A stretch of DNA of 64,000 nt from positions 1 to 64,000 of the forward strand of contig NZ_JAPWGO010000019.1 of the NCBI RefSeq assembly GCF_027213785.1, in the 5' to 3' direction. The position numbers and the translations under genes were made by a program. How positions within the stretch are numbered: position 1 is the first letter of the stretch; every line of letters begins with the position of its first letter. The stretch is from Limimaricola sp. G21655-S1 (lineage in GTDB: Bacteria > Pseudomonadota > Alphaproteobacteria > Rhodobacterales > Rhodobacteraceae). The notes beneath the pieces are model-generated. The model searched no databases. It worked only from the letters and a program-made list of their open reading frames with translations, and was not told the origin of the DNA. This document shows positions 1-18,652 of the stretch, one piece after another.

Positions 1-109
1 CCTCGATCAGGCACGCATGCCCCAGCTTCGCCAAGTCCCGCGCCGACGCAGGCGTCATCGATACCCGCGCCTCGCCGGCGGCCACTTCGCGTGGCGCTCC
101 AATCCTCAC
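1..109 (-). CDS. pntA: NAD(P) transhydrogenase subunit alpha, N-terminal fragment
   Basis: The minus strand from a GTG at 109 reads VRIGAPREVAAGEARVSMTP and continues about 16 codons to the window edge. This matches the start of PntA, the NAD(H)-binding subunit of the membrane proton-translocating transhydrogenase, which makes NADPH from NADH at the expense of the proton gradient. A GGGAGGAC Shine-Dalgarno sequence sits about 8 bases upstream and fixes the GTG start. Alanine dehydrogenase shares this fold at its N-terminus and is the main alternative, but the sequence looks closer to PntA. The gene is cut by the window edge and diverges from the F420 operon. Confidence 0.75.
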   Translation of the reverse strand, partial: MRIGAPREVAAGEARVSMTPASARDLAKLGHACLIE

Positions 110-347
110 GATACTGTCCTCCCATTGCCCCACGGCGCCCTCCCAAGCGCCGAGTGAAGCTTTCCCCGACTATCCGCGTAGTTTTATCTAGTAGTCAATT
201 ATTTTGATCGTGAAGATATTGCATCATATGTTAGTGCACTGACACAAAACGATATAAACTGCTCATAGGCTGTTTTTTGACCTGATACTAAAAATAGTTT
301 TGACAAGTCGCGTCGAGATCGCTCAGCCTTGAGGGCAGGAGGAGATC
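110..347. promoter_or_regulatory. AT-rich divergent control region between pntA and the F420 operon
   Basis: The stretch 178-305 is strikingly AT-rich compared with the GC-rich genes on both sides, as expected for a divergent promoter region. An 8-base perfect palindrome AGTGCACT lies at 233-240 and could be an operator. A possible minus-strand promoter is TTGACT (198-193) with GATAGT 18 bases further on, towards pntA. Towards cofG there are TTGACC at 277-282 and TTGACA at 300-305, but neither has a convincing -10 partner. A GGAGGAG ribosome binding site precedes the cofG ATG. Confidence 0.5.
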
Positions 348-1490
348 ATGACCAGCCACTTGCCCAGCACCGGCGCGCCGCTTGCCGAAACCGGGGATCT
401 CGATGCCCTGATGGCCAGCGCCCGCCAGATCCGCGATGCGGCCTGGGGCCGCAGGATCACCTATTCGCGCAAGGCCTTCGTGCCGCTGACCAACATGTGC
501 CGCGACACCTGCGGCTACTGCACCTTCGTCAAGCACCCCTCCTCGCCCGAGGCGCGGATCATGACGCCCGAACAGGTGCTGGCCGAAGCGCTGCGCGGCG
601 AGCGCGAGGGCTGCAAGGAGTTGCTGTTCAGCCTCGGCGAGAAGCCCGAACTGCGCTACGAGGCGGCGCGCAAGGGGCTGGAACGGTTGGGTTATTCGAG
701 GCTGACCGACTATCTTCGCGACATGTGCGCGCTGGTGCTGCGCGAGACCAGCCTGCTGCCGCATGTCAATGCCGGCACGCTGACCGACGACGAGATCGAC
801 GTGCTCAAGCCGGTCTCGGCCTCCATGGGCATGATGCTCGAAACCGTCAGCCGGCGCCTGACCCGCAAGGGCCAGCCGCATTTCGCCTGCCCCGACAAGA
901 CGCCGGTGCAGCGGCTGCGCACGCTGGAACGCGCCGGTGAAAAGCGCGTGCCCTTCACCACCGGGCTGCTGATCGGCATCGGCGAGACATGGGAGGAGCG
1001 GATCGAGGCGCTGGAGGCGATCAACGCCGCCCATGCCCGCCACGGTCACGTGCAGGAGGTCATCATCCAGAACTTCCAGCGCAAGCCCGACATCGAGATG
1101 GCCGATCACCCCGAGCCCGGGCTCGAGGACATGCTGCGCACCATCGCCGCGGCGCGGATCATCCTCGCGCCGGAGATCAGCCTGCAGGCGCCGCCGAACC
1201 TGAGCGCGCGGCACATCGCCTATCTCGACGCGGGCATCAACGACTGGGGCGGTATCTCGCCCGTCACCATCGATTTCATCAACCCGCAGCACGACTGGCC
1301 CGAGATCCGCAGCCTCGCGCGGTCCTGCGACGAAGCCGGGTTCGAGCTGCGCGAAAGGCTCACCGTCTACCCGAGATACCTCACCGAGGATTCGGGGTTC
1401 ATCAACGCCTCCGTTCGGAACCGCGCGCTCGGCATGGCCGGGGGCGAAGGGCTGGCGCGCGAGCAGCGGCATATCGGAGAGACAGCATGA
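348..1490 (+). CDS. cofG: FO synthase subunit 1 (radical SAM), CofG
   Basis: CofG is one of the two radical-SAM subunits that build FO (7,8-didemethyl-8-hydroxy-5-deazariboflavin), the chromophore of F420, from tyrosine and a ribityl-aminouracil. The 380-residue protein carries CRDTCGYC at residues 51-58, whose C51, C55 and C58 form the CxxxCxxC 4Fe-4S motif. Its length fits the stand-alone archaeal-type CofG rather than the fused FbiC of actinobacteria. A strong GGAGGAG ribosome site lies just upstream of the ATG. The stop overlaps the cofH start as ATGA, so the two subunits are translationally coupled. It is the first gene of the F420 operon. Confidence 0.95.
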   Translation: MTSHLPSTGAPLAETGDLDALMASARQIRDAAWGRRITYSRKAFVPLTNMCRDTCGYCTFVKHPSSPEARIMTPEQVLAEALRGEREGCKELLFSLGEKPELRYEAARKGLERLGYSRLTDYLRDMCALVLRETSLLPHVNAGTLTDDEIDVLKPVSASMGMMLETVSRRLTRKGQPHFACPDKTPVQRLRTLERAGEKRVPFTTGLLIGIGETWEERIEALEAINAAHARHGHVQEVIIQNFQRKPDIEMADHPEPGLEDMLRTIAAARIILAPEISLQAPPNLSARHIAYLDAGINDWGGISPVTIDFINPQHDWPEIRSLARSCDEAGFELRERLTVYPRYLTEDSGFINASVRNRALGMAGGEGLAREQRHIGETA

Positions 1491-2761
1491 CCTACCAGTC
1501 GACGACCCGGCAGTTCGCCTGCGATCCCGCCGCCGTGGGCGGCGCATCCGACCCGATCCGCGCGATCCTCGAAAAGGCGCTTTCGGGTGGCGAGGTGAGC
1601 ACCGAGGAAGGTGTGGCGCTGTTCCGCGCCGAGGGGACGGATATCGACGCCGTCTACCGCACCGCCGACACGCTGCGCCGTCGCGCCAATGGCGACCGGG
1701 TCAGCTTCGTGGTGAACCGCAACATCAACTTCACCAACATCTGCTACATGGGCTGCAAGTTCTGCGGCTTCGCCAAGCGGACCGAGGACAAATCCGCCGA
1801 GTGGCTCGAGCCCGCGCAAATCGTGGAACGGGCGCAGCAGGCCTGGGATCGCGGCGCCACCGAGGTCTGCATCCAGGGCGGGCTGCACCCGAAGATGGAG
1901 GGCACCTACTACCGGGAGATCATCCGCGCCATCAAGACGGCGTTGCCCGGCATGCACATCCACGCCTTCTCGCCCTTCGAGATCTGGTACGGCGCGTCCA
2001 AGACCAAGATGTCCTACCGTGACTTCCTGACCGATCTGAAGGAGGCGGGGCTCGATTCGATGCCCGGCACCGCGGCCGAGATCCTCGACACCGAGGTCCG
2101 AATGCAGCTCACCACCAACAAGCTCTCGGCCGAGCGCTGGGTCGAGATCATCCGCACCGCGCACGAGGTCGGCATCCCGACCACCGCGACGATCATGTAC
2201 GGCCATGTCGACGCGCCCGAGCACTGGGCCGCGCATATCGCGCTGCTGCGCGACATCCAGAAGGACACCGGCGGCTTCACCGAGCTGGTGCCGCTGTCCT
2301 TCGTGCACACCGATTCGCCGCTCTACGCCCAGAACCCCGACAAGGTGCGCCCCGGCCCGACCGCGCAAGAGGTCGACCTGATGCACGCGGTGTCGCGGAT
2401 CATGCTGCATGGCTGGATCGACAACATCCAGGTGAGCTGGACCAAGCTCGGCGCGGCGCGGGCGCAGCAGATGCTGTCGCGCGGGGTCAACGATCTCGGC
2501 GGCACGCTGATGAACGAAAGCATCTCGCGCGCCGCAGGCTCCGACCACGGGCAGGAGATCACTGCCCGCGAGCTGGTGCGGATGATCCGCGCCGCAGGCC
2601 GCGTGCCGGTACGCCGCAACACCGTCTACGAGACGCGCGAGGTGTTCGAGAACCACGACCCCGAGGAGTTGGCGCCGCTCGTAGACCGCAAGGGCCGCGA
2701 CCCGCTTGCCTTTCTCGAGATGTTCCCCGAGCGCCCCGCCGCGATTGAGGCCGCGCGATGA
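1487..2761 (+). CDS. cofH: FO synthase subunit 2 (radical SAM), CofH
   Basis: CofH joins tyrosine to 5-amino-6-ribitylaminouracil by radical chemistry; CofG then closes the deazaflavin ring. The protein has 424 residues from the ATG at 1487, with CYMGCKFC at residues 86-93 (C86, C90, C93) as the cluster-binding motif inside the typical NFTNICYMGC context. The ATG overlaps the cofG stop by four bases, which decides this start over the longer open frame upstream. Its own stop overlaps the cofD start in the same way. CofH resembles MqnC/MqnE of futalosine menaquinone synthesis, but the cof neighbours make that reading unlikely. Confidence 0.95.
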   Translation: MTYQSTTRQFACDPAAVGGASDPIRAILEKALSGGEVSTEEGVALFRAEGTDIDAVYRTADTLRRRANGDRVSFVVNRNINFTNICYMGCKFCGFAKRTEDKSAEWLEPAQIVERAQQAWDRGATEVCIQGGLHPKMEGTYYREIIRAIKTALPGMHIHAFSPFEIWYGASKTKMSYRDFLTDLKEAGLDSMPGTAAEILDTEVRMQLTTNKLSAERWVEIIRTAHEVGIPTTATIMYGHVDAPEHWAAHIALLRDIQKDTGGFTELVPLSFVHTDSPLYAQNPDKVRPGPTAQEVDLMHAVSRIMLHGWIDNIQVSWTKLGAARAQQMLSRGVNDLGGTLMNESISRAAGSDHGQEITARELVRMIRAAGRVPVRRNTVYETREVFENHDPEELAPLVDRKGRDPLAFLEMFPERPAAIEAAR

Positions 2762-3714
2762 GCCCGCGCAAGGTCTGCCTGCTCGCCGGTGGCGTCGGCG
2801 GAGCAAAGATGGCCGAGGGGCTTGCCGCCCATGACGACGTGGCGCTGTCGGTGATCGGCAACGTCGCCGATGACGAGAGCTTCCACGGGCTCTGGGTCTC
2901 GCCCGACATCGACACGCTGACCTACAGCCTCGCCGGGCGGATCGACCGCGCGCAGGGCTGGGGCGTCGCCGATGAGGGGCACCGGGCGCTGGAGACGCTG
3001 AAGCTCCTGGGCGCGGAGACCTGGATGTCGCTGGGCGACCGCGATTTCGGGCTGCACATCCACCGCACGATGCGGCGCGCAAAGGGCGACCGGCCCTCGG
3101 ACATCGCCCGCGACGTGGCCCGCGCCTTTGGCGTGACCCCTGAAATTTTGCTGCCCACCGATGACGTGGTGCAAACTCGGCTGCGGACGACCGACGGGCG
3201 CTGGCTTAGCTTTCAGGAATATTTCGTGCGCGAGCGCTGCGCACCGGAGATCCGGGAGATCGCCTTCACTGGCATGGACATGGCGCGCTCCACGCCCGAG
3301 GCGCTGGCCGCCATCGCCGAGGCCGAGCTGATCGTCGTCGCGCCCTCGAACCCGCTGGTGAGCATCGCGCCGATCCTCGGCATTCCCGGCATCGGCCAGG
3401 CGCTGCGCGCCGCCACCGCGCCGAAGATCGCGGTCAGCCCCTTCATTGACGGCCGAGTGGTCAAGGGCCCGGCCGACCGCATGATGGCGGCGCTGGGGCT
3501 GCGCGCCGACGCGCTCGGCGTCGCGCGGCGCTACAGCGGGCTGGCCGACAGGCTGGTCATCGATCATGCCGATGCCGCGCTGGGGGCCGAGATCGCGACC
3601 GCGGGCCCTGTCCCCCATTGCAGCGATATCCTGATGAAGACCCAGGCGGACAAGGCGCGGCTGGCGCGCGAGATCCTCGATCTCGCCTTCGCGCCTGCGG
3701 AGGCAGTGGCATGA
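2758..3714 (+). CDS. cofD: 2-phospho-L-lactate (or phosphoenolpyruvyl) transferase, CofD
   Basis: CofD moves the phospholactyl or phosphoenolpyruvyl group from the guanylylated intermediate (made by CofC) onto FO, giving F420-0 or dehydro-F420-0. The 318 residues begin with a nucleotide-binding LAGGVGGAKMAEGL segment (residues 9-22), followed by a conserved IGNVADDESFHGLWVSPD region (33-50) and SLGDRDFGLH (91-100), all typical of the family. The sequence does not show which three-carbon donor is used. It overlaps cofH and cofC by ATGA at both ends. Confidence 0.93.
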   Translation: MSPRKVCLLAGGVGGAKMAEGLAAHDDVALSVIGNVADDESFHGLWVSPDIDTLTYSLAGRIDRAQGWGVADEGHRALETLKLLGAETWMSLGDRDFGLHIHRTMRRAKGDRPSDIARDVARAFGVTPEILLPTDDVVQTRLRTTDGRWLSFQEYFVRERCAPEIREIAFTGMDMARSTPEALAAIAEAELIVVAPSNPLVSIAPILGIPGIGQALRAATAPKIAVSPFIDGRVVKGPADRMMAALGLRADALGVARRYSGLADRLVIDHADAALGAEIATAGPVPHCSDILMKTQADKARLAREILDLAFAPAEAVA

Positions 3715-4358
3715 GCGGCACCGCAAAGCGGCTCGTCGCGATCCCGATGAAGGATCCGCGCGATGCCAAGACCCGGCTCGGCCTCGCCCTCTCTCCTGAA
3801 CAGCGCGGTGATCTGGCGTTGATCCTGTTCCGGGCCACGGTGACGCGACTGCGCGAAGCGGTGGAGGGGCTGGAATGCCAGGTCGATCTCGCCGCGGTCA
3901 GCGCCAGCCCGATCATCCGCGACGTCGCCGAGACGCTCGGGCTGACCGTCATCGACGATGGCGGCGCGCCGTCGCTGTCGCTGGCCCTCGAGGCCGCCGC
4001 GGACTGGGCCGCCAGGCATGGCTACGGCGCGCTCTGTATCCTGCCCGGCGATCTCGCCGACCCCGACCCGGTTGATCTCGCATGGCTGCTGGATCACCCG
4101 CTCGAGGGTGGCACGGCGGTGATCTGCCCGGCCAAGGATCTGGGCACCAACGCGCTGATGGTGCCGCTGCCCCGCCCCTTCGCCTTCGCCTATGGGGCGA
4201 AATCGACGATCCGCCACCGCCGCGCCGCCGAGGCCGCCGGGCTGACCCCGGTGATGATGCCACTGGGCAGCCTGCGCGTCGACGTCGACACGGTCGAGGA
4301 TCTCCATCACCTGCCCTCCGGCCATTTGCGGCGCACGCGCCAGGAGCATGCGCAATGA
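3711..4358 (+). CDS. cofC: Phospholactate/PEP guanylyltransferase, CofC
   Basis: CofC activates 2-phospholactate, phosphoenolpyruvate or a related acid with GTP so that CofD can attach it to FO. The 215-residue protein starts at the ATG overlapping the cofD stop. It has the nucleotidyltransferase entry motif PMKDPRDAKTRL at residues 12-23 and an LPGDLADPDP stretch, the metal-binding aspartate region of this GT-A-like fold. Product and substrate are inferred from the family and from its place between cofD and cofE. Identity of the activated acid cannot be read from the sequence. Confidence 0.92.
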   Translation: MSGTAKRLVAIPMKDPRDAKTRLGLALSPEQRGDLALILFRATVTRLREAVEGLECQVDLAAVSASPIIRDVAETLGLTVIDDGGAPSLSLALEAAADWAARHGYGALCILPGDLADPDPVDLAWLLDHPLEGGTAVICPAKDLGTNALMVPLPRPFAFAYGAKSTIRHRRAAEAAGLTPVMMPLGSLRVDVDTVEDLHHLPSGHLRRTRQEHAQ

Positions 4359-5128
4359 GCCTTTCCGTCTCTCTGACCGCCATTCCCGGCATTCCTGACA
4401 TCCGCGAGGGCGACGATCTCGCCGCGATCATTGGCGACCGGCTCGACGCGGCGGGTCTCGGCCTGCGCCACGGCGACATCCTCTGCGTCGCGCAGAAGGT
4501 GTTCTCCAAGGCAGAGGGCTGCATCATCCCGCTCGCCACGGTGACGCCCTCCGACGAGGCGCGGCGCTACGCCGATGAACTGAACAAGGACGCCCGCAAG
4601 GTCGAGGTGGTGCTGCGCGAGAGCACCCGCGTGGTCCGCTCGTTCCGGCGCCCCGACCAGAACGAGGGCACGATGATCTGCGAGCATCGGCTCGGCTTCA
4701 TCTCGGCCAACGCTGCGGTCGATGAATCGAACTTCGGCGAGGAGAGCGCCGTGATGGTGCTGCCGCCCGACCCGGATGCCAGCTGCGCCGCGCTGCGCGA
4801 GGCGCTGCACGCCCGCTTCGGCGCCGAGATCGGCGTGGTGATGACCGACACCTTCGGCCGGCCATGGCGGCTGGGCCAGGTCAACGTCGCGATCGGGCTG
4901 TCGAAGGTGCCCGCGACGATCCGTGAGCAGGGCAACACCGACGCCTGGGGCCGCCCATTGCAGGTGACCGAACCCGCGCTCGCCGACGAGATCGCCGCCG
5001 CCTCGGGGCTGGTGGTGCGCAAGGACGGCAAGACGCCCGCGGTGCTGCTGCGCGGGCTCGACTGGACGCCCGCCGAGAGCCGCGGCGCCGACATACTCCG
5101 CAAGAAACAAGAGGACATGTTCAGATGA
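4355..5128 (+). CDS. cofE: Coenzyme F420-0:L-glutamate ligase, CofE
   Basis: CofE adds gamma-linked glutamates to F420-0 with GTP, producing the tailed cofactor. The 257 residues match the stand-alone archaeal-type CofE in length. They lack the C-terminal nitroreductase-like FMN domain that FbiB of mycobacteria carries. In actinobacteria that extra domain reduces the dehydro form made from PEP, so its absence leaves open either phospholactate use or a separate reductase elsewhere. The ATG overlaps the cofC stop, and the stop overlaps the next ATG. Confidence 0.93.
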
Positions 5129-5793
5129 CTATCGCGATCATTGGCGGCACCGGGCCGCAGGGACAGGGCCTCGCCTTGCGCTTCGCCCGCGCCGGCGTCG
5201 AGGTGGTGCTGGGCGGCCGCGACGGCCCGCGCGCCGCCGCCATCGCCGAGGAGCTTCAGGCGCAGCTGCCTTCGGACGCGGCGAAGATCCGCGGCCTCGA
5301 CAACGAGGGTGCGACCAAGGCTGCCGAGGAGATGGTGATCCTCGCGGTTCCCTTCTCGGCCCACAACGCCACGCTCGAGGCGCTCAAGCCTGCGCTCGCG
5401 GGCAAGATCCTTGTCGACATCGTCGTGCCGCTGGCCGAGGGCGACCCCAAGAAGGTCGACATGCCGCCCGAGGGCTCTGCCACCGAGGCCGCGCAGGCGC
5501 TCTTGGGCCCCGACATCCCGGTGATCGGCGCGCTGCACAACGTCTCGGCGGTGACGCTCAAGGCGCTCGACCAGTCGATCAACTGCGACATCCTCGTCTG
5601 CGGCAACAGTCTCGAGGCCCGCAAGAAGGTGATCGAGCTGGTGCGCAAGCTCGGCGTCGAGGCCTACAACGCGGGCGACGCGCAGTCCGCGCGCTGCATC
5701 GAGGCGATCACGCCGATCCTGATCCGGCTGAACATCTCGAAAGCGGTGCCCTTCAGCCATGCGGGCATCCGTATCTGCCCGCCCGACCACTGA
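5125..5793 (+). CDS. npdG: F420:NADPH oxidoreductase (Fno/NpdG)
   Basis: This enzyme moves hydride between NADPH and F420 and so links the deazaflavin pool to central metabolism. The 222 residues start with an NADP-binding Rossmann motif [13 protein letters not shown] (residues 5-17), as in archaeal Fno and bacterial NpdG. It is coupled to cofE by an ATGA overlap, so cofactor synthesis and cofactor reduction are made from one message. A 41-base gap separates it from the following LLM oxidoreductase. NADP-oxidoreductase-like domains also occur in ferric reductases, but the context makes F420 the clear partner. Confidence 0.9.
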
Positions 5794-5834
5794 CCCAAAA
5801 CAAGACCATCGATTTTCTAGGGAGGAAAAATCAC

Positions 5835-6875
5835 ATGGAATTCGGCATCTGCTTCAAGGGCTTCGTCGAGCCCGAACGCGCCCGCGCCCTGGTCCGCCAG
5901 GCCGAGAACGCAGGCTTCGACTATTGCTGGTTCTACGACAGCCACATCCTGTGGCGCGAGAGCTTCGTCGCCATGGCGATGTGCATGGAGCACACCACCA
6001 AGATGCGCTTCGGCCCGCTCGTGACCAACCCGAACTCGCGCGAGTGGTCGGTCGCGGCCTCGCTGTTCGGCTCGCTGGCCAAGCAGTCCGGCGGCCGCTT
6101 CGACATCGGCCTCGGGCGCGGCGACAGCGCGGTGCGTGTCATGGGCAAGAAGCCCTCGACCCTCAAGCGCCTCGAGGAGTTCACCCACGTGGTGAAGGCG
6201 CTCATTCGCGGCGAAGAAGTGCAGTACGGCGAATGCCCCGAGCCGGTGAAGTTCCCCTGGGCCGACGGCTACGAGCTTCCCGTCTGGATCGGCGCCTATG
6301 GCCCCAAGGCGCTGGCCTCGGCGGGCCGCGTCGGCGATGGCGTGGTGCTGCAGATCGCCGAGCCGAAGATCGTCAAGTGGCTCGCGGACCAGGCGAAGAA
6401 TGCCGGCACCGAGGCCGGGCTCGACATGTCGAACTACAAGGTGATGGCCGCCGCCCCCGCCCATACCGGGCCGATCGACGAGGCGATCGAGAAGGTGAAG
6501 TGGTTCCCCGCCATGGTCGGCAACCACGTCGCCGACATCGTCGAGAAATACGGCGCCGACAGCGACCAGGTGCCCTCCTCGCTCACCTCCTACATCGAGA
6601 ACCGCAAGGGCTACGACTACTCCAAGCATGGCCAGAGCGATAACCCGTATCTCGACTTTATCACCGAGGACATCATCAAGAGCTTCTGCGTGCTCGGCAC
6701 CCCGGAGGAACACATCGCCAAGATTCGCGAGCTCGAGGAAGCGGGCACCACGCAGTTCAACATCTATCTCGACAGCGGCGACGAGGAAAAGATCATCGCC
6801 GATTACGGCGACACGGTGATCCCGGCCTTCCGCGAGAAGGCGGACAACGTCACCAAGTTGAAGGCCGTCTCCTAA
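5835..6875 (+). CDS. LLM-class F420-dependent oxidoreductase (methylene-H4MPT reductase-like)
   Basis: The 346-residue protein is a TIM-barrel luciferase-like oxidoreductase. It opens with MEFGICFKGFVEPERARALV, continues with the FGPLVTNPNSR barrel segment, GGRFDIGLGRGDSAVR near residues 90-105, and LPVWIGAYGPKALASAGRVG near 150-170. The family is close to archaeal Mer. I recall it as the CPS_4043-type group, whose proteobacterial members tend to sit beside F420 synthesis genes. It is therefore the likely consumer of the F420 made by the operon. The substrate is unknown. A GGGAGG ribosome site precedes it, and a 12-bp hairpin follows. Confidence 0.85.
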   Translation: MEFGICFKGFVEPERARALVRQAENAGFDYCWFYDSHILWRESFVAMAMCMEHTTKMRFGPLVTNPNSREWSVAASLFGSLAKQSGGRFDIGLGRGDSAVRVMGKKPSTLKRLEEFTHVVKALIRGEEVQYGECPEPVKFPWADGYELPVWIGAYGPKALASAGRVGDGVVLQIAEPKIVKWLADQAKNAGTEAGLDMSNYKVMAAAPAHTGPIDEAIEKVKWFPAMVGNHVADIVEKYGADSDQVPSSLTSYIENRKGYDYSKHGQSDNPYLDFITEDIIKSFCVLGTPEEHIAKIRELEEAGTTQFNIYLDSGDEEKIIADYGDTVIPAFREKADNVTKLKAVS

Positions 6876-6898
6876 GGCGCCCCCGCGCGGAGACGCCC

Positions 6899-6928
6899 AC
6901 CGGCGGGCAGCCCACCCTGCCCGCCGGT
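6899..6928 (+). terminator. GC-rich hairpin ending the F420 operon
   Basis: A perfect 12-bp inverted repeat (6899-6910 against 6917-6928, 6-base loop) lies 24 bases after the LLM oxidoreductase stop. There is no T-run, so it may slow polymerase or protect the 3' end rather than terminate fully. Confidence 0.5.
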
Positions 6929-7009
6929 ACGGTCCGCCCCCGCTGGCCTCGCCACTCCAGTTGTGCGATAGGGCGGGCGGATCGACCTATACGAGGGGCT
7001 GGACGGCTC

Positions 7010-7633
7010 ATGGCACGCATGGCAGGCACGAAGCCCAAGACCCGGATCCAGCGCAAGAACACCGAACAGATCCTCGGCGCCGCGCTCGAGGTCTTCGCGC
7101 AGCACGGCTCCTCGGGCGCCTCAATCAACCTGATCGCCAAGACCGCCGGGCTGACCACGCCGAACCTGCTCTACTACTTCGAAAGCAAGGACGCGATCCG
7201 CCGCGAGCTTCTGGCCCGCACCCTGCAGCTGTGGATGGCGCCTCTGAACATGCTCAGCCCGCATGGCGAGCCGGTCGAGGAGATCTGCCAGTACATCCGG
7301 CGCAAGCTTGACATCTCCAAGAATTTTCCCAAGGAAAGCAAGTTCTTCGCCAACGAGATCCTGAGCGGGCTGCCGCAGTCCAAGAGCGAGATCTTCGGTC
7401 CGCTGAAGGAGCTCTACAACGCCAAGATCGCGGTGCTGGAAGACTGGATCCAGGCGGGCCGCATCGCGCCCGTCGATCCGCATCACCTGCTCTACTCGAT
7501 CTGGGCCACGACCCAGCACTACGCCGATTTCGACGTCCAGATCGAGGAGATCGCGCCGGAAAAGGCCAAGGACCGCTTCGCGGATGCCGAGGCGTTCCTG
7601 ATCGAGATGTACCGGAAGCTGCTCACCGTTTAA
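7010..7633 (+). CDS. TetR-family regulator with RutR-like effector domain
   Basis: The 207 residues comprise an N-terminal TetR helix-turn-helix (about residues 18-65; IAKTAGLTTPNLLYYFESKD at 42-61) and a RutR-type C-terminal domain. The RutR likeness shows in YIRRKLDISKNFPKESKFF, in PVDPHHLLYSIWATTQHYAD and in LWMAPL. E. coli RutR binds uracil or thymine and controls pyrimidine breakdown. Here the gene follows the F420 operon, so it may control that operon or the pathway of the LLM enzyme; this is inference. Two in-frame ATGs (7010 and 7019) are possible starts. It has its own upstream gap of 134 bases. Confidence 0.85.
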   Translation: MARMAGTKPKTRIQRKNTEQILGAALEVFAQHGSSGASINLIAKTAGLTTPNLLYYFESKDAIRRELLARTLQLWMAPLNMLSPHGEPVEEICQYIRRKLDISKNFPKESKFFANEILSGLPQSKSEIFGPLKELYNAKIAVLEDWIQAGRIAPVDPHHLLYSIWATTQHYADFDVQIEEIAPEKAKDRFADAEAFLIEMYRKLLTV

Positions 7634-15954: not shown

Positions 15955-18597
15955 TCAGAAGGCGGGAACGGTCTGGCGGCGGCGCTGCAGCAGCACCACG
16001 CCCGCCAGCAGCAACAGTGCCGGGATGTAGAACACGTATTTGGTGATCCGTTCGCGCGGCGCCTGCACCTGTGCGATCTGCACCGGCCTGTCCGAATAGA
16101 AGTCGAAATCGGCCAGCTTCTCGGCGGCCGGAGTGCCGAACATCGGCTCGTCGAGCCGCACGACCTCGCCCTCCGGGAACAGCAGCAGCCCGGACGCGTC
16201 GATCCGCTCGGCGGCGCCGCCCTCGCCCTCGATATCCATCACCAGCGTGGTCGAGGTCAGCGCGCCCGAGTTGAAGTCGGGCCCCTCGATCCTGAGCCGC
16301 AGCCGGTCGCCCGGGTTGGCCTCGGCCACGGCGGTTTCGAACTCGGCCGGGGCAAAGGTCTGGAACGGGCTCTGCATCTGGTTCAGCCAGAAGCCCGGCA
16401 CGAAGAGGGTGAAGGCCACGACCAGCAGCGCCGCGGATTCGTGGATCTTCGACGGTGCCAGGAAATACCCCTGGGTGGCGGCGGCGAAGAGCAGCATCGC
16501 AATGGTCGCGACCACGAAGATGAACGCCGCCTGACCGATCCCGAACCACGTGCCGAGGTCGATGCCGTAGAGGATCAGCGCCGGGTTGTAGATGAACAGG
16601 AACGGCAGCGCGACGGTGCGCAGGCTGTAGAAGAAGGCCGTGAAGCCGGTCTTGATCGGATCGCCCCCCGAGACGGCGGCGGCCGCGAAGCTCGCGAGAC
16701 CCACGGGCGGCGTCACATCGGCCATGATGCCGAAGTAGAAGACGAAGAGATGCGCCGCGATCAGCGGCACGATCAGCCCTTCCTGCGCGCCCAGATTCAC
16801 CACCACCGAGGCCATCAGCGACGACACCACGATGTAGTTCGCCGTGGTCGGCAGCCCCATGCCGAGGATCAGCGAGAACAGACCCACGAAGATCAGCATC
16901 AGGATCAGGATGCCGCCCGAGAGCTGCTCGACGAGACCGGCGAGCTCGGTGCCGATCGGGGTCTTGGTGACGGTGGCGACGATGATGCCGGCGGCCGCCG
17001 TGGCGACGCCGATGCCGATCATGTTGCGCGCGCCCGCGACAAGGCCGTCGCGCAGGTCGTGGAGCCCGGCGCCGAATTCATGGGCGATCTCGCCGCCCCT
17101 GCCCCGGAACAGCGCCTTGAGCGGGCGCTGGGTGACGATGATCAGCAGCATCAGGCAGGTGGCGTAGAAGGCCGATTTCGCCGGGCTCTGCCGCTCGACC
17201 ATCAGGAACCACACCAGCACCAGGATCGGCAGCACGTAATGCAGGCCGGTGGCATAGACCTCGGCCACGGTGGGCAGCTTGATCTCCTCGTCGGAGGGAT
17301 CGTCGATATGCAGGTCGGGCCGCTTGGCCGCGACCCAGACGAGGCCGAGATAGACCGCCGCCAGCACCAGCATCATGATCGGCGCGGTGAGCGAGGGCAG
17401 CGCGGATTCCAGCGCGTCGACGCCGTAGATCAGCGCCGTGAAGCCGATGCCCGCGACCACGAAGCCGATCGCGAACTTCACGATCATGCCGGCGAAGCTC
17501 TTGCTCTCGCCCAGCGCCGGCATACCACGCTTCAGCGCTTCGAGATGCACGATGTAGACCAGCGCGATGTAGGAGATCACCGCCGGGATGAAGGCGTGCT
17601 TGATCACCTCGAGATAGGAGATGCCGATGAACTCGACCATCAGGAAGGCGGCGGCGCCCATCACCGGGGGCATGATCTGGCCATTGACCGAGGAGGCCAC
17701 CTCGACCGCGCCCGCCTGTTCCCGCGAGAAGCCCACACGCTTCATCAGCGGGATCGTGAAGGTGCCGGTGGTCACCACGTTGGCGATCGACGAGCCCGAA
17801 ATCAGGCCGGTCATCGCGGAGCCGACGACCGCCGCCTTCGCGGGACCGCCGCGCAGATGCCCCAGCCCCGCGAATGCGAGCTGGATGAAGTAGTTGCCGG
17901 CGCCCGCCTTGTCGAGAAGCGAGCCGAACAGCACGAACAGGAACACGAAGGCGGTGGAGACGCCGAGCGGGATGCCGAAGACGCCGGCGGTGTCGAGCCA
18001 CTGCGCGTTGATCAACGAGGTGAAGGAGAGACCCTCATGCTCGACCAGATCGGGGATCAGCCAGCCGGTGCCGAAATAGGCATAGGCCAGGAACAGCCCG
18101 CCGACGATGGTGAGCGCGGGGCCCAGCGCCCGGCGCGACGCCTCGAGCAGCACCAGTATGCCGACCGAGCCGATGATCACCTGCGTCTGCGTCGGCAGGC
18201 CGGAGCGCGCCGTCATCGCCAGCGTGTCGGAGAACCAGAACACGTAGAAGGCGCAGAAGGCCCCGATCAGCGCCAGGGCCCAATCCGCCAGCGGCACCTT
18301 GTGGCGCGGGCTCGACTTGAAGGCCGGATAGGCGAGGAAGGCGAGGAAGATCGCGAAGGTGAGGTGAATGGGTCGGGTCTGCGAGGAGTTCAGCACCGGC
18401 AGGTAGGCGCCGAACCACAGCTGCGGCTGCGCGATCCAGAGCTGGAACAGCGACCAGGCCATGGCGGTGCCCGCGATCAGCATCGCGGTGGCGCGGTTCA
18501 CGGGCGCGCGGGCGCCGGAATCCGAACTGGTGACGAGATCCTGCAGGTCGTCGTCCGAATATTGCCGGTCGTCCCGGTCCTCGCGCTGCTCGGCCAT
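15955..18597 (-). CDS. TRAP transporter fused 4TM/12TM permease (TAXI type) with DUF3394 tail
   Basis: This inner-membrane protein joins the small (DctQ-like) and large (DctM-like) TRAP subunits in one chain of about 880 residues. The DctM part contains typical motifs such as MTGLISGSSIANVVTTGTFT, GQIMPPVMGAAAFLMVEF and GLFSLILGMGLPTTANYIVV. The last roughly 170 residues form a DUF3394-type soluble domain before a final membrane helix. The ATG at 18597 is preferred because GGGAG lies upstream; an earlier in-frame ATG at 18636 adds 13 unlikely residues. It is transcribed after the TAXI receptor gene and separated from it by a strong hairpin. Confidence 0.93.
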   Translation of the reverse strand: MAEQREDRDDRQYSDDDLQDLVTSSDSGARAPVNRATAMLIAGTAMAWSLFQLWIAQPQLWFGAYLPVLNSSQTRPIHLTFAIFLAFLAYPAFKSSPRHKVPLADWALALIGAFCAFYVFWFSDTLAMTARSGLPTQTQVIIGSVGILVLLEASRRALGPALTIVGGLFLAYAYFGTGWLIPDLVEHEGLSFTSLINAQWLDTAGVFGIPLGVSTAFVFLFVLFGSLLDKAGAGNYFIQLAFAGLGHLRGGPAKAAVVGSAMTGLISGSSIANVVTTGTFTIPLMKRVGFSREQAGAVEVASSVNGQIMPPVMGAAAFLMVEFIGISYLEVIKHAFIPAVISYIALVYIVHLEALKRGMPALGESKSFAGMIVKFAIGFVVAGIGFTALIYGVDALESALPSLTAPIMMLVLAAVYLGLVWVAAKRPDLHIDDPSDEEIKLPTVAEVYATGLHYVLPILVLVWFLMVERQSPAKSAFYATCLMLLIIVTQRPLKALFRGRGGEIAHEFGAGLHDLRDGLVAGARNMIGIGVATAAAGIIVATVTKTPIGTELAGLVEQLSGGILILMLIFVGLFSLILGMGLPTTANYIVVSSLMASVVVNLGAQEGLIVPLIAAHLFVFYFGIMADVTPPVGLASFAAAAVSGGDPIKTGFTAFFYSLRTVALPFLFIYNPALILYGIDLGTWFGIGQAAFIFVVATIAMLLFAAATQGYFLAPSKIHESAALLVVAFTLFVPGFWLNQMQSPFQTFAPAEFETAVAEANPGDRLRLRIEGPDFNSGALTSTTLVMDIEGEGGAAERIDASGLLLFPEGEVVRLDEPMFGTPAAEKLADFDFYSDRPVQIAQVQAPRERITKYVFYIPALLLLAGVVLLQRRRQTVPAF

Positions 18598-18652
18598 CGG
18601 ACGCGCTCCCTCATGCTGTGTCGGTGTCAGGCCCATCCCTCGGGACAGGAAT

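Follow-up and report, generated by a model that had tools for sequence, protein, structure and literature searches.

Enzymes of the PydA/PreTA type, which reduce uracil to dihydrouracil in the reductive Pyd pathway, are described as dihydroorotate-dehydrogenase-like iron-sulfur flavoproteins with several Fe-S clusters and with NADPH, NADH or ferredoxin as electron donor (PMC7332683). The ferredoxin-dependent PydAc from Clostridium, presented in the same paper, shows that the electron donor of the first Pyd step can change, but this enzyme retains the FMN and Fe-S domains of a PydA homologue and does not use F420. For a putative F420-dependent yanthine reductase of the luciferase family in Chloroflexota, gene context has led to the proposal that it reduces a ring resembling uracil and thereby stands in for an enzyme of the PydA or YgfK type (PMC12507026); it belongs, however, to a uric acid pathway in another phylum, is likewise putative, and the parts of that paper that deal with it do not propose pyrimidine catabolism by F420. 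Gene disruption and NMR indicate that SSGG-03002/NpsU, an enzyme of uridyl-peptide antibiotic biosynthesis in Streptomyces with a predicted F420/FMN domain, reduces a uracil moiety at its C5-C6 bond in vivo, but in vitro assays failed and its cofactor is putative (PMC10714638). Here, we analysed a stretch of 64,000 nucleotides (the window) from Limimaricola sp. G21655-S1 (contig NZ_JAPWGO010000019.1, positions 1 to 64,000), which carries near its start a set of F420 genes followed by a gene for an LLM protein of the TIGR03842 family. We propose that this LLM protein is, with good probability, an F420H2-dependent uracil/thymine reductase in an F420-run reductive pyrimidine catabolism, unrelated to PydA/PreTA.

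The candidate resembles PydA/PreTA in its predicted reaction, the conversion of uracil to dihydrouracil, in its pathway position, in its neighbouring genes for dihydropyrimidinase, amidohydrolase and aminotransferase, and in the type of its regulator. It differs in being a single-gene LLM protein that is expected to use F420H2, and no sequence relation was found: the LLM protein matches 22 NCBIfam families, none of which is PydA/PreA (NF006183, or dihydroorotate-dehydrogenase-like) or RutA (TIGR03612). The features of the locus within the window are the following:

2..109, minus strand: start of pntA, for the alpha subunit of NAD(P) transhydrogenase, truncated where the contig ends (tblastn)
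110..347, strand not applicable: divergent intergenic control region, with a putative operator/promoter role
348..1490, plus strand: cofG, FO synthase subunit 1 (TIGR03550, 455 bits, cut-off 213)
1487..2761, plus strand: cofH, FO synthase subunit 2 (TIGR03551, 512 bits, cut-off 374)
2758..3714, plus strand: cofD, 2-phospho-L-lactate transferase (TIGR01819, 266 bits, cut-off 257, a narrow pass)
3711..4358, plus strand: cofC, 2-phospho-L-lactate guanylyltransferase (TIGR03552, 127 bits, cut-off 105)
4355..5128, plus strand: cofE, F420-0:L-glutamate ligase (TIGR01916, 233 bits, cut-off 181)
5125..5793, plus strand: fno (npdG), NADPH:F420 oxidoreductase (TIGR01915, an equivalog, 193 bits, cut-off 150)
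5835..6875, plus strand: llm, TIGR03842 LLM enzyme, proposed F420H2-dependent uracil/thymine reductase (TIGR03842, 508 bits, cut-off 295; fold relatives; genome context)
7010..7633, plus strand: tetR, RutR-like TetR protein, proposed uracil-responsive repressor of the locus (PF08362 and PF00440)

The eight genes from cofG to tetR run in one direction and are in frame and complete. The initial annotation had read the first six as overlapping genes for full F420 synthesis and an F420:NADPH oxidoreductase, followed by a single LLM gene and a regulator, and this was borne out: adjacent genes from cofG to fno overlap by 4 bp at all five junctions, every product except the regulator passes the NCBIfam cut-off for its own family, with all five biosynthesis enzymes (CofG, CofH, CofD, CofC, CofE) exceeding curated cut-offs, and the regulator has a TetR_N and a YcdC/RutR C-terminal domain. 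CofG and CofH are separate proteins here, while Proteobacteria are said to have a fused FbiC (review PMC8498797); in two genomes of the same family (G042 and G269), the open reading frame over cofG runs to 810 and 815 aa, which would fit a fusion. The cofE product comes without an FbiB reductase domain and has only the ligase domain in Pfam. The CofC protein of Paracoccus denitrificans, which carries the same locus (L022), has been reported among those that use 2-phospho-L-lactate best, although this assay cannot tell the natural substrate according to its authors (PMC8764529).

The initial annotation had also called the F420 module self-contained, a point that did not hold. The module is one arm of a divergent pyrimidine-catabolism locus, the other arm of which lies beyond the contig end. 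The window starts at the left end of its contig (C110 in an assembly of 4.23 Mb and 584 contigs), and positions 2-109 encode the first 36 residues of PntA, with 42% identity to Halomonas PntA over these 36 residues (tblastn, E 7e-5). The DNA here is 93% identical to that at the matching site of L. soesokkakensis (L009), which continues with homologues of PntA and PntB. Another contig of the same genome, C186, starts with the end of PntB and continues with an omega-aminotransferase, an M20 amidohydrolase, a dihydropyrimidinase and an NCS1 permease. Directly upstream of cofG, L. soesokkakensis has aminotransferase, PntB and PntA homologues, and L. cinnabarinus (L011) has a dihydropyrimidinase, an amidohydrolase and an aminotransferase, with no PntAB match. 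Because these two relatives have these genes upstream of cofG, C186 is placed next to the window by synteny and not from assembled sequence. It is through C186 that a dihydropyrimidinase and an amidohydrolase of the beta-ureidopropionase kind meet in one locus, the substrate of the latter being ambiguous by model name. This pyrimidine context had escaped the initial annotation, and it turns a cofactor of unknown purpose into one with a specific, testable job.

A single scan of named genomes gave 103 confirmed loci, of which we analysed the best 80 (LLM identity 72-100%); some of these are cut by contig ends. At least three of the five cof genes are present in 70 loci and all five in 66, fno was found in 67 and a RutR-like TetR gene in 55. 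A dihydropyrimidinase is encoded in 32 loci, an M20 amidohydrolase in 40 and either one in 44, besides an NCS1 permease in 30, PntA or PntB in 15 and an aminotransferase in 11. At least one pyrimidine-pathway enzyme, NCS1 permease or the regulator is present in 62 of the 80 loci. Since the gene set of the window recurs, identical in content and order, in many other genomes, it is not a chance assembly. The loci are spread over alpha- and gammaproteobacteria in several arrangements: divergent in Rhodobacterales and Pseudovibrio; with the regulator first and a divergent amidohydrolase and permease in Marinomonas; with LLM followed by amidohydrolase, PntA and PntB in Halomonas and Marinobacter; and with a dihydropyrimidinase, an ABC transporter and an NMT1-type binding protein upstream in SAR116 and Cohaesibacter. 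Some Halomonas-type loci also encode homologues of a cytosine permease and a cytosine deaminase. In one locus (L075), the LLM gene lies 40 bp downstream of a dihydropyrimidinase gene on the same strand, without cof genes within the 19.9-kb stretch. Representative neighbours pass the curated models for dihydropyrimidinase (TIGR02033), the TIGR01879 amidase family, omega-aminotransferase (NF052567), PntA (NF006942), cytosine permease (NF008241) and cytosine deaminase (NF006685). Allantoin degradation was considered and rejected, as the hydrolase scores 609 bits against a cut-off of 393 with TIGR02033 and fails the allantoinase model (237 bits, cut-off 358).

Several further observations were made in these loci. 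A record titled Nocardioides marinus (L019) has a Leisingera-like cassette with an LLM protein 90% identical to that of the window, and is probably misnamed. A TonB-dependent receptor homologue lies beside or near the cassette in Alteromonas-type loci (L069:11400-13718, L071, L073) and in L042, and might perhaps serve the uptake of nucleobase-containing compounds. A small membrane protein of the DMT/YdcZ family (L068:16745-17236) recurs in the pyrimidine-type loci L059, L063, L068, L070 and L078.

The neighbouring genes cover uptake and the reductive pyrimidine steps down to beta-alanine and its transamination, except for the first reduction. In 49 genomes drawn from the 80 loci and searched as a whole, a dihydropyrimidinase is present in 48, whereas PreA (NF006183) is above its cut-off in only 10: three Limimaricola, one Thalassovita, three Leisingera, Epibacterium, Tritonibacter and Roseibium MMSF_3412. 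RutA was found in none of the 49 at E 1e-60, with positive controls. P. denitrificans (L022/G303) is one of the genomes with neither a PreA match above the cut-off nor a RutA match. Each of the ten PreA genomes encodes two or more dihydropyrimidinases; the 39 genomes without PreA divide into 31 with a single copy, seven with two and Roseisalinus with none at the threshold used. The idea that LLM always replaces PreA was rejected, both being present in those ten genomes.

Among 295 genomes of the window's family (294 genera), cofG and LLM are each above cut-off in 13 and are found together in 12 (p 2e-19). The genome with LLM alone is an assembly of 74% completeness, in which the LLM contig has a weak match to the CofG model, perhaps cofH; the genome with cofG alone is the one that carries the 815-aa frame. 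This co-occurrence, 12 of 13 in either direction, supports the earlier suggestion that the F420 made here is used chiefly by the LLM enzyme, the part of the initial interpretation that stood. PreA is present in 239 of the 295 genomes, but in 3/13 with LLM against 236/282 without it (Fisher p 5e-6; p 6e-6 when restricted to genomes at least 90% complete and at most 5% contaminated). Four other LLM proteins were found in the genome of the window, nearest to SsuD-like proteins, Atu2307/SP_0267, MsnO8 and an NRPS (nonribosomal peptide synthetase)-embedded TIGR04020; none of these nearest families is named as F420-dependent, in a search that left aside other kinds of F420 enzymes such as the FDORs (flavin/deazaflavin oxidoreductases). 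The last of the four, at G000:C111 around 272890-276813 (L008), is an NRPS-like protein with an embedded FMN-type LLM domain.

The LLM protein of the window is 100% identical to the L. soesokkakensis copy and 97-99% identical to those of four other Limimaricola, and within the same set of loci LLM varies less than CofC. TIGR03842 is a family of the kind 'hypoth_equivalog', and an open-access search found no literature on TIGR03842 or CPS_4043. With an AlphaFold2 model of LLM (35 sequences, mean pLDDT 85, pTM 0.86) as query, Foldseek returned Mer, the F420-dependent methylene-tetrahydromethanopterin reductase, as best match (E about 1e-23), then Adf, FGD2 and FGD1, and all top 17 matches are chains of F420 enzymes. 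The highest-ranking FMN luciferase, at rank 18 (E 1e-14), has an E-value close to those of rank 17 and of the FGD1 chains and lies far behind Mer. A profile search gave the same succession, with Mer first, then other F420 enzymes, then luciferases. Mer is the closest solved structure (TMq 0.74-0.80, 26-29% identity), but LLM reaches only 132 bits with the Mer model TIGR03555 (cut-off 349), for which reason a Mer function was rejected, and Glu6 of Mer, which is mutated in PDB entry 8qq8, corresponds to a cysteine in LLM. The predicted fold and this cysteine support the use of F420 in a reaction other than that of Mer, while the fold leaves the substrate unspecified. Residues ~223-276 of LLM, where model confidence is lower, are nearly invariant across the family, and this stretch is a candidate for the substrate region.

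The regulator matches RutR in the PDB (3loc, E 6e-45) and is nevertheless called RutR-like and not RutR, as it scores 202 bits with the RutR equivalog model TIGR03613, below the cut-off of 368. The uracil ligand of E. coli RutR stacks between W77 and W167 and is contacted by Q171, by Y97 via water, and by Q179 of the partner chain (PMC10891134). The corresponding residues of the window regulator are W75, Y95, W165, Q169 and Q177, and all five are kept in 56 of 56 regulator homologues (from the 55 loci and from contig C44 of the same genome), at identities down to 36%. The likeness to RutR thus lies in overall sequence similarity and in the uracil contacts, and the difference in the missed TIGR03613 cut-off. 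Between the two arms, an alignment of 15 regions upstream of cofG from Rhodobacterales and Pseudovibrio has a mean column identity of 45%, best among Limimaricola, and contains conserved elements at ~182-208 (TTTTATCTAGTAGTCAATTATTTTGAT) and 273-305 (TTTTTTGACC...TAAAAAT...TTGACA). A RutR-like palindrome pattern has four matches in the window, two of them in this intergenic region, against 3.9 expected from shuffles, and simple inverted repeats differ from species to species. Neither search defined an operator, and we therefore claim the conserved elements only.

From gene content and order, co-occurrence, conservation and fold class, we infer the following pathway. CofG, CofH, CofD, CofC and CofE would make F420, and Fno would reduce it at the expense of NADPH, some or all of which would come from the transhydrogenase PntAB encoded alongside. 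LLM is then predicted to transfer a hydride from F420H2 to the C5=C6 bond of uracil, and probably also of thymine, to give the 5,6-dihydropyrimidine. The dihydropyrimidinase would open the ring, the M20 amidohydrolase would release ammonia, CO2 and beta-alanine, and the omega-aminotransferase would carry beta-alanine onward. The bases would be imported by the NCS1 permease, or in other species by an ABC transporter or a cytosine permease, and the RutR-like regulator may bind uracil and thereby release the divergent promoters. If cof expression indeed needs pyrimidines, then the trace of F420 reported for P. denitrificans (review PMC8498797) would be what one expects in ordinary media.

A number of observations weigh against this proposal. 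No pyrimidine gene was seen in the stretch examined in 18 of the 80 loci (six Devosia-type, five Roseibium-type and seven others, several on short contigs), and the Roseisalinus genome (L058/G323) has no dihydropyrimidinase at the threshold used. The model names of the amidohydrolase are ambiguous, including allantoate and carbamoyl amino acids, and the fold alone separates F420 from FMN enzymes weakly, an FMN luciferase being close behind FGD1. In a Halomonas-centred group of 151 genomes, LLM is present in 6, PreA in 46 and both in none, which at p 0.18 is a trend only, and all co-occurrence tests are Fisher tests without correction for phylogeny and so ignore shared descent. Finally, PreA is also found in 10 of the 49 LLM genomes, three Limimaricola among them, and in the window's own genome, and therefore LLM is not the sole candidate there and could serve a related base.

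In the genome of the window, contig C44 encodes PreT and PreA together with a TetR protein 49% identical to that of the window, an M20 amidohydrolase, a dihydropyrimidinase and an ABC transporter with its binding protein. The regulator type and the hydrolases are common to both loci, whereas the reductase, the transporter and the aminotransferase differ, and PreTA on C44 holds the place that LLM and F420 take in the window locus. The dihydropyrimidinase of the Thalassovita F420 locus is 89% identical to the C186 copy and 73% identical to the C44 copy. This parallel speaks for LLM as the pyrimidine reductase of its own locus. A rival reading, which we hold to be unlikely, is that LLM reduces a related ring, such as thymine only, a 5- or N-substituted pyrimidine or a hydantoin-like compound, that the hydrolases act on the resulting product, and that PreTA or another enzyme handles uracil where present. 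The presence of both systems in Limimaricola and other genomes fits this idea, as do the two or more dihydropyrimidinases of every PreA genome, the name of TIGR02033 itself, D-hydantoinase, and the report that the enzyme of the mureidomycin case did not reduce uracil in the assays tried (PMC10714638). On the other hand, 39 of the 49 LLM genomes lack PreA above the cut-off and all lack RutA, 31 of these 39 have a single dihydropyrimidinase, the regulator keeps its uracil contacts, and the cytosine permease and cytosine deaminase homologues of some Halomonas-type loci lead to uracil.

In Roseibium-type and some Devosia-type LLM loci, an F420-dependent glucose-6-phosphate dehydrogenase homologue is encoded and no Fno match was found, which suggests that the F420-reducing partner is exchangeable. 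The homologue of L034 passes TIGR03554 (490 bits, cut-off 420), and the others were assigned by clustering. The positions are about 4.7-5.9 kb in the Roseibium-type loci without pyrimidine genes (L034, L036, L037, L044 and L058), L084:4796-5893 and L087:11148-12146. Such loci, several of them with this dehydrogenase in place of Fno and without pyrimidine genes in the stretch examined, speak for the reading that LLM is a general F420 enzyme for stress, detoxification or sugar oxidation whose neighbourhood reflects a hitch-hiking gene block. We regard this as very improbable, as the link to pyrimidine genes survives rearrangement in several layouts, including the dihydropyrimidinase adjacency of L075 without cof genes, and as a dihydropyrimidinase is found in 48 of the 49 genomes while PreA is absent from 39.

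RutA, the uracil monooxygenase, belongs to the same Pfam superfamily as LLM, and the regulator of the locus is RutR-like. That LLM is an FMN-dependent monooxygenase with a RutA-like oxidative attack on uracil, the F420 genes serving something else, is nonetheless highly unlikely and was rejected, given the absence of RutA from the family matches of LLM and from all 49 LLM genomes, the F420 enzymes as its closest solved relatives by sequence and fold, the reductive-pathway hydrolases beside it, and the pairing of CofG and LLM, which share 12 of 295 genomes and are each found without the other in one.

Outside this locus, the window encodes at 15955-18636 on the minus strand a TRAP transporter DctM protein with a C-terminal DUF3394 domain.

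Taken together, we favour an F420H2-dependent uracil/thymine reductase as the function of LLM. Extending this, we find it rather more plausible than not that F420 has one main purpose in a range of Proteobacteria, namely uracil-induced pyrimidine catabolism, in which a single-chain, non-homologous and presumably metal-free F420H2-dependent dihydropyrimidine dehydrogenase replaces the Fe-S flavoenzyme PydA, with Fno and often a dedicated transhydrogenase as its power supply and with F420 synthesis under a uracil sensor. One might speculate that iron saving is the reason for this replacement, as PydA carries several Fe-S clusters. Among the matches listed by our search of the open-access literature, which did not extend to subscription papers and preprints, no link between F420 and pyrimidine catabolism was found. 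The yanthine reductase and NpsU precedents make the proposed chemistry more plausible and its novelty somewhat lower. If the proposal is true, LLM would add to PydA another, unrelated class of enzymes that start reductive pyrimidine breakdown, the TIGR03842 family would gain a function, and the synthesis of a cofactor would become part of a catabolic regulon. Why Proteobacteria synthesise F420 is listed as an unanswered question in a review of the field (PMC8498797), and the locus described here offers a specific answer to it that is testable in one assay.

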